From the NCBI GenBank assembly GCA_025350625.1, contig JANXXL010000342.1:1-44449 (forward strand): a stretch of 44,449 nucleotides of DNA. Reading direction: 5' to 3'. Below, piece after piece: positions 37,687-44,449 of the stretch. Both the position numbers and the translations under genes were made by a program. Each line of letters begins with the position of its first letter. Position 1 is the first letter of the stretch. The stretch is from Bryobacterales bacterium (lineage in GTDB: Bacteria > Acidobacteriota > Terriglobia > Bryobacterales > Bryobacteraceae). Below the pieces are notes generated by a model that was not told where the DNA came from, made no database searches, and saw only the letters and a list, made by a program, of their open reading frames with translations.

Positions 37687-37761
37687 TTAATGGTGTAGTA
37701 AGAACCAGGCAACCAGCAGGACTCCGGGAACGCCGAGGGCCCACGCAACAATGTATCCCAT
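37687..37761 (-). CDS. 24-residue hydrophobic micropeptide (AW-x-LGVPG type, copy 1)
   Basis: A tiny frame of 24 codons plus stop, preceded by GGAGGT 6-11 bases before the ATG. The product is almost entirely one membrane helix: MGYIVAWALGVPG followed by VLLVAWFLLHH. It shares the pattern x-Y-[IL]-[IV]-AW-x-LGVPG...WFL-x-HH with the micropeptide at 42706, and the two genes have the same GCGTGG-x-x-x-CTCGGCGTTCC core at DNA level. A strong ribosome binding site, a clean helix and a conserved paralogue support a real gene. It is expected to insert in the inner membrane. Function unknown. It follows a decayed P-type ATPase region on the same strand. Confidence 0.75.
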   Translation of the reverse strand: MGYIVAWALGVPGVLLVAWFLLHH

Positions 37762-37969
37762 AAAACACCTCCGCCACGTTACTTGCAACCGCAAGTCCAA
37801 TCAGGCTTCCCCGAACCGTCAATTCGTAAGTGTGTGCAATAAAGATGGTGTGTAACGTCGTCTCTCTATGGTTCGCGATTTCTCGACGGTTGCCCGGCGA
37901 TTGACGCGGCAATATATTCACAAGCGTGCTCGGGAGGTGCATGCGCAGCTGATAGGCTCACGACGCACG

Positions 37970-38230
37970 CGCCTCAGACCCACCGATTCCTTGGCGATGT
38001 CCGCAGCGTTGATTCCGTCGCCCATGAATCCGCCCACGTGTATCTTGCCGCGGGAGGACGCGGATGGCCTGCTGCTTGTGGGCAGGAGAGAGGCGCGCGA
38101 AGAGCGTCGCCTTCTCTGCCGCGTAGGCCAACTCGGTATCGGACATTTTCTCCACATCGCCGCCGAGGAGCACGGGCATGAGGCCGACGTCCCTGCCTTT
38201 GCGGGTAATCAGTTGGTTGACTGCAACAAA
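37970..38230 (-). pseudogene. Relic of an MgtA-type P-type ATPase
   Basis: Read on the minus strand, 38230 to about 38053 gives ITRKGRDVGLMPVLLGGDVE and KMSDTELAYAAEKATLFARL then SPAHKQQAIRVL, the P/N-domain segment of magnesium-transporting ATPases. The match then changes frame to KIHVGGFMGDGIN (the conserved GDGIND hinge) and continues AADIAKESVG, with about 20 residues missing between the hinge and IAKES. The rest of the roughly 850-residue protein is absent. So a frameshifted and internally deleted fragment remains. The 37770-38328 stretch holds no other gene that I can support. Confidence 0.7.
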
Positions 38231-38328
38231 ATCGCAACGTACCGTACAGCCCCACCAAACTCTAAGCCATATGGCACGCGATGCATGCTCAGATTTTGGG
38301 CTGTGGCTGTAATCTGGTAATTGAATTC

Positions 38329-38418
38329 TGGCGGTGAGGGTGGGATTCGAACCCACGGAACCCGTGAAGGTTCAACGGTTTTCGAGACCGCCCGATTCAA
38401 CCGCTCTCGCACCTCACC
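38329..38418 (-). tRNA. tRNA-Ser(CGA)
   Basis: On the minus strand the acceptor strands GGTGAGG and CCTCACC pair, discriminator G is followed by an encoded CCA, the T-arm is GTGGG-TTCGAAT-CCCAC, and the anticodon loop CT-CGA-AA gives anticodon CGA for serine codon UCG. A long variable arm (AACCTTCACGGGTT region) is the type II arm expected for serine tRNA. A P-type ATPase relic lies just downstream of its 3' end, the side where integrating elements usually insert. Confidence 0.93.
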
Positions 38419-38544
38419 GTACTTCTAACCTAACTGATTTTTCCAGCTCTTGCAATTAACTCGATACCCGAATTCACCGCCGATTTAGGACTTCGACATT
38501 AGTCGTAAGCCTTATGGCGCGAATGATCGGAACTCCGACAGGCC

Positions 38545-40845
38545 TTAGAGCAGCTTGTCGAGAGAGATAGGCAGCTCTCTGATCCGTTTCCCCGTCGCGT
38601 TAAAAATGGCATTAGCGATCGCCGCTGCCGCGCCAGTGATGCCGATTTCGCCGAGTCCCCGTGCGCCCAATGGCGCATGCTCATCGGGTATATCTGTGTA
38701 AACGATTTCGATAGGCGGCACATCCAAATTCACCGGGACATGGTATTCGGCGAGCGAAGGATTCATAATTCGGCCCCGGCGCTCGTCGAATAGTGTCTCC
38801 TCGGTCAGCGCCATGCCGATTCCCATGATGATCCCTCCCTGAAGCTGGCTCACAGCCGTTTTAGGGTTCACAATAGTCCCGCAATCGAAAGATCCCAGCC
38901 AGCGCGACAGCCGGATTTCGCCGGTTTCTGCGTGCACCCGAACCTCGCAAAATTGGGCTCCGTAAGAAGCCATCGAATACTTCATTGTTTCGAGCGGCGG
39001 TCCGGAAGATGCTTCAGCTTCGACCGAAGCCCGTCCCGCAGCCCGTAGAATGTCGGAATACGTTTCTCCGTGGTTCAAGTCGCCGATGCGATAAATCCCG
39101 CCGTCGCGCGCTTGCACTTGTTCGTATTTCGCGCCATGCAGCGGTGAATCGGCGCGTTTGCCCGCCAGCCTGAGCATTTCACGATAGATTTGCTCGACGG
39201 CGGCCTGCACCGCTGCGACAATGGTCGCGGTCTGGTTGGACCCGCCCGCCAACATCGGAGTATCGGGCAACTGCGAGTCGCCATATTGAAAAGTTACTTG
39301 TTGTAGCGACAAGCCCATGCGATCGGCGGCGTGCTGTATTTGCACGGTGGCCGTTCCCATTCCCATCTCACAGGCCGGCGTTTGCACGATCGCCGTTCCG
39401 TCGGCGTGGATGCAAACGCGAGCCTTCGCCGGGAAGCGCATATACGGATAGTAGGCGGTCGCTACGCCTTGGCCGATCAGCCACTTCCCTTCCCGCTGGG
39501 AGCGCGGCTCGGGGTTGCGGCGGGCCCACCCGAATTTCTCTGCTCCCATGCGATACGCTTCCACGAGTTGGCGGCTCGAAAACAGAGTATCCTTCGTCGG
39601 ATCTTTTACCGGCTCATTGATGCGCCGCACTTCAATCGGATCCATCCGCAACTCAAACGCAAGCTCGTCTATGGCCGATTCGAGAGCGAATGTTCCGATC
39701 GATTCCCCCGGAGCTCGCATCCAAGTGTTGGCGACCGTATCGAGGTAGACGACTTTCTGGCCGATGAACACGTTGGGTGGACCGTAAAGATGCCGCGCCG
39801 GAAAAGTGCATTGTTCGGCGTAGCGCCCGCTCCGTGTTGTGGCCGTAATTCCGGTGTGGAGCAGAGCGTCTAACCTTCCGTCTTTGCCCGCTCCCAATGC
39901 GACGCGCTGTTCTGAGATAGTGCGCCCGCCGATCACGCGGAAGACCCCTTCGCGCGATAACGCCAGCTTAACGGGACGGTTCACTACTTTCGCGGCCGCC
40001 GCGCAAAGCGCCGTATGATTCCACAGGCCGGCTTTGCCGCCGAAACCACCCCCCACGAATGGTGCCACCACCTGAACGTCTTCATTTTTAAGACTAAATA
40101 TGTAGGCCAGAGTATGGGCGGTCAGATTAACCGACTGTGTGGAATCGAAGACCGCTAAACCGCCGTCGGGATTCCAAAAGGCAATCGTCGCGTGGGGTTC
40201 GATGGCATTGTGGTTGTAGCGGGGCGCCCGGTAAATATTGTCGACACTTACAGAGGCCTGTTCGAGACCCTTCTTCACGTCGCCGATTTTGATCTCCGGT
40301 GGCTCGCCCATGACGTCGTGCGGCGTCACTGCCCCGGCCTTCATGGCTTCGAACAAAACTTGCGGTGACTCGGCGGCATAATCAATTTGGACGAGAGACG
40401 CAGCATATTCGGCTTGCTCCAAAGTCTCCGCCACGACGACCGCCACCGGTTGTCCGTCCCAGTAAATCGCGTCGTCCTGCATAATCGGCAAGTCGCTCAG
40501 GGCCACGCCCTTGCCTAGATCTTCAAAATTCGCCAGAGGCGGCGCCTTCATCCTGGGCATGTTGTGATGGGTAATCACCTCCAAAACACCAGTCACCGCT
40601 TTGGCCCGAGAAGTATCGATCTTTGTGGATTTCCCTTTGGCAATAGCGCTATAAACCAGCGCGCCATAAACCAGGTCAGGGACCCTGAATTCCGCGGTAA
40701 AACGCGCCTCGCCTGTCACCTTCACTTCAGCATCGACACGTGTAACAGGTTTGCCGACAAACCCTGCCTGGTCTATCAATGGATCTTTCTTCTTGTCGGG
40801 AAGGAACTGCGCGGCGGTTTGCATGATGGATTCGATCACACTCAT
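38545..40845 (-). CDS. paoC: Molybdopterin-binding subunit of xanthine dehydrogenase-family aldehyde oxidoreductase (PaoC/YagR-like)
   Basis: 766 residues. The N-terminal YVGKPV-like start ([20 protein letters not shown]), [16 protein letters not shown] (molybdenum cofactor contact, about 265), [20 protein letters not shown] near 380, and the C-terminal [20 protein letters not shown] with the catalytic Glu identify the Moco subunit. With the two following subunits it should oxidise aldehydes (aromatic aldehydes in E. coli PaoABC); the substrate here is not shown. It overlaps the FAD subunit gene by 4 bases. Cofactor-loading chaperone (PaoD/XdhC type) is not in the window. Confidence 0.9.
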
Positions 40846-41837
40846 AGCGCACCCTCCGCTTCGGTCATTTCGCTCAATACGCTGACGATCGTTCGTTTCG
40901 CCAATTCAATTTTGAAGTTGTTGTATCCATATCCTCGCGCTCCCGCGAGTTCCGCTTCAGCCGCGCGTTGAAATGTCTCGATGCCGGCTTTCGAGCCGGT
41001 CAGCACCTTTTCCGCTTGATAGGCGCGCCACGGCTTGTGCGCCACCCCGCCCAGCGCGAGACGCACGTTCCGGATGGTTCCATCCATTATTTCTAGCGCC
41101 GCTGCCACGCTTACGAGTGCGAAGGCGTAACTCGCGCGATCCCGTACTTTCCGGTATCGCGAGTGTTTGGCAAATCCGAGCGGCGGCAATTCAATCGAAG
41201 TAATCAATTCATCCGGCTTCAGATCGGTCTCGAAGTGCGGCGCATCTTCCGGGAGCCGATGAAATGCGCCGAAAGGAATGCTGCGCTCACCCCCCGGGCC
41301 TGTCACGCGAACAGTCGCCTCCAGCGCCGCCAGGGCGACACACATGTCCGACGGATGTGTGGCGATACAACTTTCGGATGTCCCCAAAATGGCGTGCATC
41401 CGATTGAACCCTCCGAGGGCGTCGCATCCCGACCCGGGAGCCCGTTTATTGCACTTCGCAGCGTCGTCGTAGAAGTAATAGCAGCGTGTGCGTTGCATCA
41501 GATTGCCGCCGACCGTCGCCATATTTCTAATCTGGCCGGATGCGCCGTAGAGTATCGCCTGCGACAACACCGGATAGCGCTCCCGAATCAAGCGGTCATT
41601 CGCAACCGCGCTATTCCTGACCGCCGCACCGATAGAGATACCGCCGTCCGGAAGTTCTACGATGCCGGCCGGCGACAACCCCGTGACGTCCACCAGGGCG
41701 TCTGGTTGTTCGATATCTTCGCGCATCAGATCGACTAAGTTTGTGCCTCCGCCCAGAAACTTTGAGTTCGGATTCAGCGACCAGAGCGAAAGGGCCGCAT
41801 CGGCAGAGCGGGCTTGCGAATAGGCGAAATTCTTCAT
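40842..41837 (-). CDS. paoB: FAD-binding subunit with 4Fe-4S site (PaoB/YagS-like)
   Basis: 331 residues. FAD-binding motifs [20 protein letters not shown] and [13 protein letters not shown] are clear. Unlike ordinary xanthine dehydrogenase FAD subunits it has an inserted cysteine-rich segment [19 protein letters not shown] and [17 protein letters not shown], with a further Cys in [12 protein letters not shown], which in PaoB carries an extra 4Fe-4S cluster. This supports the PaoABC type over a standard XDH. It overlaps both neighbours by 4 bases, a fully coupled three-gene operon. Confidence 0.9.
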
Positions 41838-42415
41838 CGCGTTGCCTCCGCCTTAAATGCGCCGCGAATGGCTGCGCAGATCCCTACGTAAGCGCCGCAG
41901 CGGCACAAATTGCCGCTCATCCGTTCTTTAATCTCCTCGTCGGAAAACTCCGGCGCGGCAGAGGAGTCTTTGCTTACCGCGCTAGGCAAGCCCGCCTTAA
42001 ATTCCTGGATCATACCTATCGCGGAACAAATTTGACCCGGCGTACAATAGCCGCATTGGAATCCGTCCTGTTCCACAAATGCTGCTTGCATGGTGTGCAG
42101 CGCTCCCCCGGAGCCCAAACCTTCGATGGTTATGATATCCGCACCTTCAAACTGGACGGCAAGCGCCAAGCACGAAAGAATCCGGTCTCCGTTGACCAAA
42201 ACGGTGCAAGCACCGCACGCGCCTTGGTTGCAACCTTTCTTGGTGCCGGTCAGATCCAGGTGTTCCCGCAAGGCATCCAGAAGAGAAACACGTGGCTCAA
42301 CCCTCAAGGTGTGAGCAGTGCCGTTTACCTGCAACGTTATCTGATCTATAGAGGGACTCGGGAGCTGGCTCTCTGGACTTGCTGCCCTCTTACGTTCAAT
42401 TACTGGATGTTCCAT
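41834..42415 (-). CDS. paoA: 2Fe-2S subunit of aldehyde oxidoreductase (PaoA/YagT-like)
   Basis: 193 residues. Two 2Fe-2S binding regions: plant-type [16 protein letters not shown] with further Cys in ILSCLALA, and [16 protein letters not shown] with [12 protein letters not shown]. coli PaoA begins with a Tat signal; here the N-terminus ([18 protein letters not shown]) has no twin-arginine or hydrophobic stretch, and an in-frame stop lies just upstream, so the complex is predicted to be cytoplasmic. It is the first gene of the operon, with a palindromic operator candidate 82 bases upstream. Confidence 0.9.
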
Positions 42416-42705
42416 TTGATTCCTCGACCTTCAACAACTGTGATTAAGTTAGATCCAGTATTATTCGGTTTCGTTACGTGGCCAGAAGACGCGTTTACAG
42501 TTACTAACTGTCAGAGCGCATCGCCTTATAGACTCTTCGTTTGAGCGGTGCAGTTAATGCACGGCGCTTGCACGAAATACGTCAGCCTCATTGTTTTTCT
42601 AGGAAACGCAAAAGAACGACTGAAGAAATCACTCATCCAGGCGGAGCTTCCCATAGGCCATGCAAATGCAGGTCATGGGACGCACGTTAATCAAAGGAGA
42701 CAACC
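42416..42705. other. Intergenic region between paoA-like and micropeptide 2 genes
   Basis: About 290 bases between two divergent genes. Apart from the palindrome at 42497-42511 and the ribosome binding site AAGGAGA at 42694-42700 I see no supported gene. An open frame that reaches 42544 on the plus strand is antisense to paoA and lacks protein-like features. Confidence 0.5.
42497..42511. promoter_or_regulatory. Perfect palindrome ACAGTTA-C-TAACTGT, operator candidate
   Basis: A 15-base perfect inverted repeat (7-bp arms, 1-base centre) 82 bases upstream of the paoA-like start, in an otherwise gene-free divergent region. Size and symmetry fit a dimeric repressor such as a TetR- or GntR-type protein; no such regulator gene is next to it. 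The AT-rich stretch between it and the start contains weak -10 candidates (TAATAC). Confidence 0.4.
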
Positions 42706-42783
42706 ATGAAATATCTCATTGCGTGGGGGCTCGGCGTTCCGGGGGCCTTAATCTTTGTCTGGTTTTTGATGAGCCATCACTAG
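42706..42783 (+). CDS. 25-residue hydrophobic micropeptide (AW-x-LGVPG type, copy 2)
   Basis: A 25-codon frame with AAGGAGA 6-12 bases before the ATG. The product is one membrane helix, MKYLIAWGLGVPG followed by ALIFVWFLMSHH. It is a clear paralogue of the 24-residue frame at 37687-37761 (shared AW-x-LGVPG, WFL and terminal His-His). It precedes a DUF883/ElaB-like gene by about 100 bases in the same direction, with a structured hairpin between, and then a holin-family relic and katE. The neighbourhood suggests membrane stress or stationary-phase function; this is inference. Confidence 0.78.
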   Translation: MKYLIAWGLGVPGALIFVWFLMSHH

Positions 42784-43310: not shown

Positions 43311-43516
43311 ATGGCCCTCGATAACCGCCGCTCGGTTTCAGAAGTACTGCGGGGCATTTTGGGAACGTGCAGGACATTGTCCGCTCCGAAGTGCGCCTGG
43401 CGAAGTCGGATCTAAAAGCAGAGGCGGGTAAGGCTGTCAGCGCCGTTACCGGAAAGAAGAGCGGGCACAATCCTCTTATACCGCGGGAGTTTGAAGCCTC
43501 TACCCATCGAATCTAG
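43311..43516 (+). pseudogene. Relic of a phage-holin-superfamily (YqjE-like) protein
   Basis: From the ATG at 43311 the frame reads MALDNRRSVSEVLRGIL, the usual start of holin-superfamily III/YqjE-like proteins, but then runs into a stop after about 34 codons. Adjusting by one base at the GGG run at 43361 restores [20 protein letters not shown] and EAGKAVSAV, after which the family's two membrane segments should follow; instead the frame goes to [17 protein letters not shown] and a stop at 43514-43516. So there is a one-base deletion in a G-run and loss of the membrane part. It lies exactly where an intact partner of the DUF883 gene is expected. Confidence 0.7.
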
Positions 43517-43556
43517 GCTTCTTAGAGAACGGAAGTCGCGACTTGTTACGAGGAAC

Positions 43557-44449
43557 ATGAAACCCAAAAAAAAGACCAAAGATAACGCGTTGCGTGGTAA
43601 AGGCGGGGAACTTCATCAGACCGCAGGGGCCGATGTGCCCGTGCTTACCACCCAGCAAGGCACGCCCGTTTCCGACGATCAGAATTCGTTGCGGATAGGG
43701 CCGCGGGGCCCGACGGCTCTCGAAGACTTCCACTTACGTGAAAAAATCTTCCATTTCGATCACGAGCGCATCCCTGAACGAGTGGTGCACGCGCGCGGGT
43801 TCGGCGCTCATGGGTACTTCGAAAACTACCAGCGTCTTCCCGACCTTACTTCGGCCGACCTGTTCCAGCGAGCCGGTGAGAAGACACCGGCTTTTGTCCG
43901 CTTCTCAACGGTAGCCGGCAATAAAGGCTCCGCCGATCTGGCGCGCGATGTGCGCGGCTTCGCCGTAAAGCTCTACACGCAACAGGGAAACTGGGACATT
44001 GTGGGCAACAATATACCGGTATTCTTTATTCAGGACGCGATCAAGTTTCCGGATCTGATCCACGCTGCTAAACAGGAGCCAGACCGCGATTTCCCGCAGG
44101 CGCAAACCGCTCACGATAACTTTTGGGATTTCATTTCGCTAATGCCCGAAAGCATGCACATGATCATGTGGGTGATGTCGGATCGTGCTCTTCCGCGGTC
44201 CTTCCGCTTCATGGAAGGTTTCGGTGTGCATACTTTCCGCTTGGTAACCGCAGCGGGAAAGTCGACCTTCGTTAAATTCCATTGGAAACCCAAGCTGGGC
44301 ATGCAGTCGGTATTATGGAATGAAGCGGTAAAAATCAACGGCGCGGACCCGGATTTTCATCGAAGAGATCTCTGGAACGCCATCCAGTCAGGCAACTTTC
44401 CCGAATGGGAGTTGGGCTACCAGCTTTTTGACAATAAATTCGCCGACAA
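43557..44449 (+). CDS. katE: Catalase, large-subunit (KatE/HPII-like), 5' part
   Basis: 297 codons are visible before the window ends. ACGAGGAAC precedes the ATG. The N-terminal extension with [20 protein letters not shown] and [20 protein letters not shown] is typical of large clade 2 catalases (about 700 residues). The distal heme His is residue 78 ([14 protein letters not shown]) and the catalytic Asn is in [14 protein letters not shown] (about 151). [20 protein letters not shown] and HTFRLV follow as expected. It breaks down hydrogen peroxide in the cytoplasm. The C-terminal heme-Tyr region and flavodoxin-like domain lie outside the window. Confidence 0.95.

Follow-up and report, generated by a model that had tools for sequence, protein, structure and literature searches.

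The described protein closest in role to the peptides studied here is YohP of Escherichia coli (NCBIfam NF011345), a 27-residue single-helix protein of the inner membrane for which passages of PMC12719787 report a role in stress. The yohP gene is located between mdtQ and dusC. CydX (YbgT-YccB), the small subunit of cytochrome bd, likewise spans the membrane with one helix, and its N-terminus reads aromatic-AW-x2-G. In this study, we analyzed a stretch of 44,449 nucleotides from a Bryobacterales bacterium (contig JANXXL010000342.1; hereafter the window), in which two tiny frames on opposite strands encode peptides of 24 and 25 residues, designated copy 1 and copy 2 (Table 1). Both frames belong to one family of single-helix peptides, mostly of 23-28 residues and probably located in the inner membrane. 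These share the core W-x2-G-[VI]-P, in front of which most have KY-x2-A or [KR]G-x-L-L. It is likely that the family is a stress-induced, single-span membrane micropeptide that acts through this core on a target in the inner membrane.

YohP and the family both carry MK..W near the N-terminus, but YohP lacks the G-[VI]-P core. The NF011345 model was not matched by queries P0001 and P0002 or by five further family queries (one of them composite), and YohP itself scored 67.3 bits against a cut-off of 58. When YohP was aligned pairwise with 130 peptides, the best score was 44, a value reached by 27 of 400 shuffles, and the median was not above that of the shuffles. Homology to YohP did not emerge clearly from these comparisons.

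Coding evidence, breadth and annotation of the family

The peptides form a gene family with a conserved start codon, a ribosome-binding site and purifying selection. In Bryobacteraceae, 26 of 150 genomes (the window's own genome included) contained a match at E values up to 0.1. Removal of L028, whose match lay inside an 871-residue frame, left 27 loci in 25 genomes, and all 27 had a start codon (26 ATG, 1 TTG); further Acidobacteriota homologues with a start codon and a ribosome-binding site, as expected by a preceding sequence-only reading of this DNA, do therefore exist. A ribosome-binding site of at least four bases was found in 112 of 115 distinct loci, compared with 17% of random positions. 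Moreover, pN was lower than pS in all 351 pairs of the 27 Acidobacteriota copies (medians of 0.26 and 0.76, respectively), which were chosen by peptide similarity, a choice that favours low pN. The other two frames lacked such a bias, the share of pairs with pN below pS being 53% and 1%. Selection is hard to avoid as an explanation because near-identical peptides are paired with near-saturated synonymous sites, as in L009 and L015 (pS 0.78, pN 0.07). The sequence-only reading had claimed selection on the peptide, as opposed to a recent DNA copy, and had looked to a comparison of synonymous with non-synonymous change; the bias toward synonymous sites in every pair bears it out.

Both window frames translate exactly as that reading had claimed, and the strong ribosome-binding sites that it assigned to them were both found. 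The peptides had also been described as near-identical paralogues, which agrees with their similarity score: among 11,175 pairs formed by 150 small open reading frames (ORFs; 20-32 residues) of the window, this pair scored 92, twice the runner-up (46). A search of the window's own genome recovered both peptides together with a third copy, MKYFGAWLLGVPTGLIFIWFLFNHAH (contig C284:2176-2247), and the hydropathy of the three copies is 1.9-2.3 over 19 residues. Because copy 1 is closest to L010 of the same genus (MGYIVAWALGVPGILILAWFLLSH; MGYIVAWALGVPG is common to both), the window copies look like old paralogues and not like the products of a recent duplication. The terminal His-His, listed earlier among the invariant positions, does not characterize the family, whose peptides vary most at the C-terminal end.

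Sequence matches indicate that the family is far wider than Acidobacteriota and also spans Alpha-, Beta- and Gammaproteobacteria. A wider sample of the phylum was thin: 6 of 247 genomes matched at E values up to 0.01, the window's own genome included, and beyond that genome G316 was the only one with a full-length strong match. When 84,980 species in a sequence collection were scanned with one pattern, at least 114 loci were returned, of which 19 (longer ORFs or frames without a start) were removed and 95, all short ORFs with start and stop, were kept. L125 and L139 were admitted by hand despite a non-standard start and then excluded from alignment A2, as were five loci present twice. The inspected loci do not include L033-L037 or L195-L206. 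Among the pattern matches listed (the titles of L124-L157 are outside this list), record titles named Burkholderia, Massilia, Herbaspirillum, Nitrosospira, Nitrosomonas, Methylophilus, Roseateles, Legionella, Dyella and Dokdonella, together with metagenome-assembled genomes (MAGs) of Labilithrix and Acidobacteriota. Plasmid and chromid records added members from Sinorhizobium, Paracoccus and Caballeronia. A further branch, with peptides resembling MGRGILLWLLGVPIPIIIL, was matched in 23 of 249 and 33 of 240 genomes in whole-genome samples; it is termed alpha-type here from its likeness to the named Sinorhizobium and Paracoccus copies, and intermediates to it exist (for example, MRYFIAWLLGVPLSILILIWLFNHLF). 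Most genomes or records that held the family had one match (26 of 28), and two had two. Every one of the 27 Acidobacteriota and 46 alpha-type peptides has the core G and P, and 70 of the 73 also have W; the peptides were found by similarity, and 30 of the alpha-type ones were then located by the core motif within the hit. Invariance of KY, AW, G and P in the 95 pattern loci is not evidence, because the search pattern imposed these residues. A Natrinema plasmid match was rejected as a chance frame, and six viral pattern matches were rejected as family members; query P0002 matched nothing in a phage collection.

General stress regulons are well studied, yet none of the Pfam or NCBIfam models recognized, above its cut-off, this gene of about 25 codons that may be common to many such regulons. 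Neither window peptide had a Pfam match, and when 115 members were compared with Pfam nothing convincing was found (best Inovirus_G7P_1, E 0.0028, and Ost4, E 0.0059). No family query exceeded any NCBIfam cut-off; a match to the VraH family (E 0.0098, 15.8 bits against a cut-off of 40) was taken as chance. A profile search of solved structures returned only G-protein-coupled receptor (GPCR) and cathepsin chains (best E 0.066). Three records had gene tables that could be used: two of them (plasmids of Legionella lytica and Caballeronia; such tables are known to be incomplete) did not list the peptide, and one over-extended it. In the latter, Paracoccus ferrooxidans CP038202.1, an annotated 87-residue hypothetical protein (L159:3812-4075) is an over-extended call of a 25-residue peptide: the peptide is the tail of the frame, and the annotated start lies upstream of an EcfG-type promoter, which sits inside the frame. 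The suspicion that the family is under-annotated is thereby upheld. The family is easily missed by gene finders, and its conserved core can be used for annotating members. It is apparently unnamed, though of a kind already known, the stress-linked small membrane proteins. String and other searches of open papers returned no description of it, the large small-protein catalogues not having been searched by sequence. One published candidate is SEP6 of Sinorhizobium meliloti, which in passages of PMC10117765 is a translated protein of fewer than 30 residues with one predicted helix, located in the membrane fraction and conserved in Hyphomicrobiales. SEP6 may be a family member; the family sequence for comparison is MKGIILWLMGVPLIVIILLYMFVF.

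Stress-gene neighbours and EcfG-type promoters

General-stress families are over-represented next to the peptide. Gene calls came from a simple codon model made for this analysis. Within 700 bp of the peptides there were 230 neighbours, 190 of them of at most 400 residues, and 150 of these were sampled; the far control comprised 150 proteins sampled from 218 of at most 400 residues (264 of any size) located beyond 2500 bp. When the two sets of 150 were compared, BON was found 14 times near and 2 times far (Fisher p 0.0016) and CsbD 14 times near and 3 times far (p 0.005), related loci being uncorrected in both tests. In Burkholderia loci the CsbD neighbour lies upstream of the peptide; L049, L105 and other Legionella-type loci have it downstream. 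Three neighbour tallies, of 102, 96 and 128 families, were each read for their 25 commonest families; when the near and far sets of 150 were compared at the same depth, DUF2383 (6), PRC (5), hemerythrin (4), Hva1_TUDOR (3) and holin-3-6 (3) were found near only. OsmC and YflT each occurred twice among the near neighbours, counts that say nothing because families outside the 25 commonest could have two far members. An opposite trend was seen for response regulators (3 near, 9 far) and YtxH (2 near, 3 far). Among 40 large near neighbours, signalling domains were commonest (HATPase_c 5, PAS 5, EAL 4), with one catalase. Of the 95 loci, 5 had a catalase of one cluster at a distance of up to about 3.7 kb, a count without a control set; the cluster has six loci but was counted as five because its L083 member is, by eye, a short DJ-1-like protein. 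The 77 Acidobacteriota neighbours included BON 5 times, followed by outer-membrane barrel, YflT and ActD 3 times each and cytochrome c twice. On the Legionella lytica plasmid, the peptide is followed by genes for CsbD, PRC-barrel and DUF3309 proteins. CsbD, BON, YqjD/DUF883, YflT and KatE share neighbourhoods with the peptide, but none of them is of the same sequence family or as small.

Inspection of upstream sequences showed that many alpha-type members carry putative promoters of the EcfG type (EcfG being a general stress sigma factor) at a fixed distance. The motif GGAAC-N15-19-CGTT was found upstream of 12 of 25 alpha-type loci, compared with about 0.8 predicted from the background rate, and always began its match at -53 to -67 relative to the start. 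An unguided dyad search of the alpha-type group ranked GGAAC-N16-CGTT first (9 of 23 loci, compared with 0.28 expected). In a predefined test, with the interval fixed at -75 to -45 and 28 loci of a further sample (two repeated genomes were left out), 8 loci carried the motif compared with 0.09 expected (binomial p 4e-14, relatedness ignored). Some of the promoter loci are near-duplicates, for example two from Paracoccus. According to passages of PMC7083833, GGAAC-N16-CGTT is the conventional general-stress motif, and csbD, katA and osmC are direct targets in Sphingopyxis granuli; csbD and katA of Sphingopyxis share the promoter type of the alpha-type peptides. For the RpoS-type sequence CTATACT, upstream sites were found in 2 of 90 loci, mainly of the beta/gamma group, compared with 0.4 expected; a site of this type lies 36 nt before the start in L160, but 43 of 200 shuffles contained as many in that locus.

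Two further arrangements were observed at subsets of loci. Massilia/Pseudoduganella-type loci L065, L078, L088, L090, L104, L108, L130 and L145 share GCGTACGGAC about 60-88 nt upstream of the peptide, which is perhaps the promoter of another stress regulator. In L211, L212, L217, L222 and L229, the peptide is located between glyoxalase-like and glutathione S-transferase-like genes (named by eye), with an EcfG-type motif just upstream.

Proposed role and alternative explanations

If the family is a stress-induced micropeptide acting on an inner-membrane target, the peptide would be made under general stress (starvation, desiccation or oxidative stress) and would insert into the inner membrane with its basic N-terminus inside. 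The Pro/Gly-kinked, tryptophan-bearing helix would then dock onto an integral membrane protein encoded elsewhere, and docking would tune either this target or how the membrane is energised. Such a role would be like that of YohP, but with a more conserved core. Action on something encoded elsewhere is favoured because the loci have no constant neighbour and the peptide has a promoter of its own. Copy 2 may be the first gene of a stress operon in the window, followed by the YqjD-like protein, the YqjE-like remnant and KatE. The family offers a defined target for the question of what stress-induced small membrane proteins do. A broader version is possible but doubtful: the peptide would be a core, cross-phylum element of the general stress response, placed under different regulators in Acidobacteriota and the main proteobacterial classes, in which the same kinked 25-residue helix clamps one conserved housekeeping membrane complex and puts the energised membrane into a protected state. 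Such a layer of the stress response would have escaped notice because gene calling passes over so short a gene.

Several observations weigh against the proposed role. Most sampled genomes had no match (26 of 150, 6 of 247, 13 of 274, 23 of 249 and 33 of 240 matched, in samples that used different queries and thresholds), related loci were counted more than once, and KY-x2-AW-x3-G-[VI]-P was imposed on the 95 loci by the search pattern. The A of the Acidobacteriota A-x3-G pair is L in 40 of 46 alpha-type peptides, and a test for a conserved helical face that could bind a partner did not reach significance (p 0.09 to 0.92). No neighbour was constant across loci, and non-stress families also recurred near the peptide (HGLS 4, SSB 3). 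The promoter evidence comes from alpha-type loci only, of which 13 of 25 and 20 of 28 lack the strict motif; in the Acidobacteriota group, motif and unguided dyad searches found no strong shared upstream motif.

One alternative is that the peptide acts mainly on the lipid bilayer, lowering membrane potential and fluidity with no specific protein target, as has been proposed for YohP. That protein reduces membrane potential and fluidity and dimerises through a glycine motif, as described in passages of PMC12719787, and it resembles the family in size class, single helix and stress setting. We hold this explanation to be unlikely, though it deserves some weight, since the retention of the core G, P and W (even with 30 alpha-type peptides located by that motif) is more than bulk hydrophobicity seems to need, and the alignment with YohP is not clearly above shuffles. 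Rather improbable is a role as dedicated subunit of an adjoining polytopic membrane protein (alignment A5), the two forming an apparent operon in several lineages. Homologous forms of this protein adjoin the peptide in nine alpha-type and five Legionella-type loci; measured to the first in-frame start, seven alpha-type loci have a gap of 9 bp, L220 has one of 2 bp, and the gaps of the five Legionella-type loci are 27-36 bp; the alpha-type and Legionella-type forms are homologous to each other (hhalign E 7.9e-8). However, the codon-model caller placed later starts in some loci, the other loci searched had no clear homologue save a weak match 2.3 kb away in L125, and a search of the window's own genome, run without a positive control, found none. 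This polytopic family, a candidate partner of the peptide, starts with W-x2-I-x2-GA and was observed in L210, L214-L216, L219-L221, L224 and L226 and in L051, L063, L083, L084 and L132; four tested members had no Pfam match above cut-off, and a low-confidence model (pLDDT 59) gave no fold match below E 0.001.

A CydX-like role of the peptide, as the small subunit of a terminal oxidase, is very unlikely. The N-terminal Y-x-AW-x2-G resembles that of CydX, 5 of 115 members touched PF08173 at E values up to 1, and ActD (alternative complex III) and cytochrome c were present among the Acidobacteriota neighbours (3 and 2 of 77); the best PF08173 E value, however, was only 0.17, which is not significant, and neither cyd nor other terminal-oxidase families were among the 25 commonest in any of the three neighbour tallies. 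CydX membership was rejected on the PF08173 profile. A short hydrophobic peptide that lies ahead of other genes at some loci might also be the toxin in a small toxin-antitoxin system or serve as a leader peptide instead of a functional protein, but this is hardly probable given strong ribosome-binding sites, purifying selection on the helix, an EcfG-type promoter of its own in many alpha-type loci, and neighbours that are variable and often on the opposite strand; antisense RNAs were not searched for. The sequence-only reading had hinted at a membrane-stress or transporter-associated peptide, comparable in size to small regulators of P-type ATPases, and had seen a putative ATPase relic upstream of copy 1; on this view the peptide would regulate a P-type ATPase such as MgtA. 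Nearness to membrane and stress genes was confirmed. The association with P-type ATPases was not: such families had no two members among the families tallied for the 40 large near neighbours or the 77 Acidobacteriota neighbours and were absent from the 25 commonest of the 150 small near neighbours. As neither relic ORF matched Pfam either, we used this result and the neighbourhoods to reject the P-type ATPase explanation, which we regard as extremely improbable.

Surroundings of the copies in the window and genus

The features of the window are collected in Table 1.

Table 1. Positions of the two micropeptide genes and nearby features in the window
Feature	Position	Strand	Evidence
Micropeptide copy 1, 24 residues, MGYIVAWALGVPGVLLVAWFLLHH	37687..37761 (stop included)	-	Translation; own-genome search; relative L010
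Ribosome-binding site GGAGGT, copy 1	37767..37772	-	Sequence; family-wide excess of ribosome-binding sites
Micropeptide copy 2, 25 residues, MKYLIAWGLGVPGALIFVWFLMSHH	42706..42783 (stop included)	+	Translation; own-genome search
Ribosome-binding site AAGGAGA, copy 2	42694..42700	+	Sequence
YqjD/ElaB (DUF883)-like protein (tentative name), 138 residues	42883..43299	+	99 bp downstream of copy 2; Pfam DUF883_C E 0.11
Holin-3-6 (YqjE-like) remnant	43367..43516	+	PF07332 E 0.0031, residues 2-27, below Pfam cut-off
KatE-type catalase	43545..44447	+	Pfam Catalase E 2.9e-125; runs off the window end

The sequence-only reading had placed DUF883, a holin relic and katE beside copy 2 and a magnesium-ATPase relic beside copy 1. 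KatE was confirmed, the holin remnant was matched weakly, and the name YqjD/ElaB (DUF883)-like is tentative because the DUF883_C match was below threshold; this gene is perhaps co-transcribed with copy 2. The supposed magnesium-ATPase relic (37918-38356, minus strand) was not supported, since its two ORFs had no Pfam match up to E 1; the segment may still be a degraded P-type ATPase remnant. Elsewhere in the genus, L010 lies downstream of the C-terminal domain of a long catalase, with one gene between. Immediately after the third copy, on contig C284, comes a gene that by eye is BON-like. A three-gene operon for a molybdopterin-type oxidoreductase (Fe-S, FAD and Moco subunits) was also observed in the window at 38545-42415 on the minus strand, divergent from copy 2.

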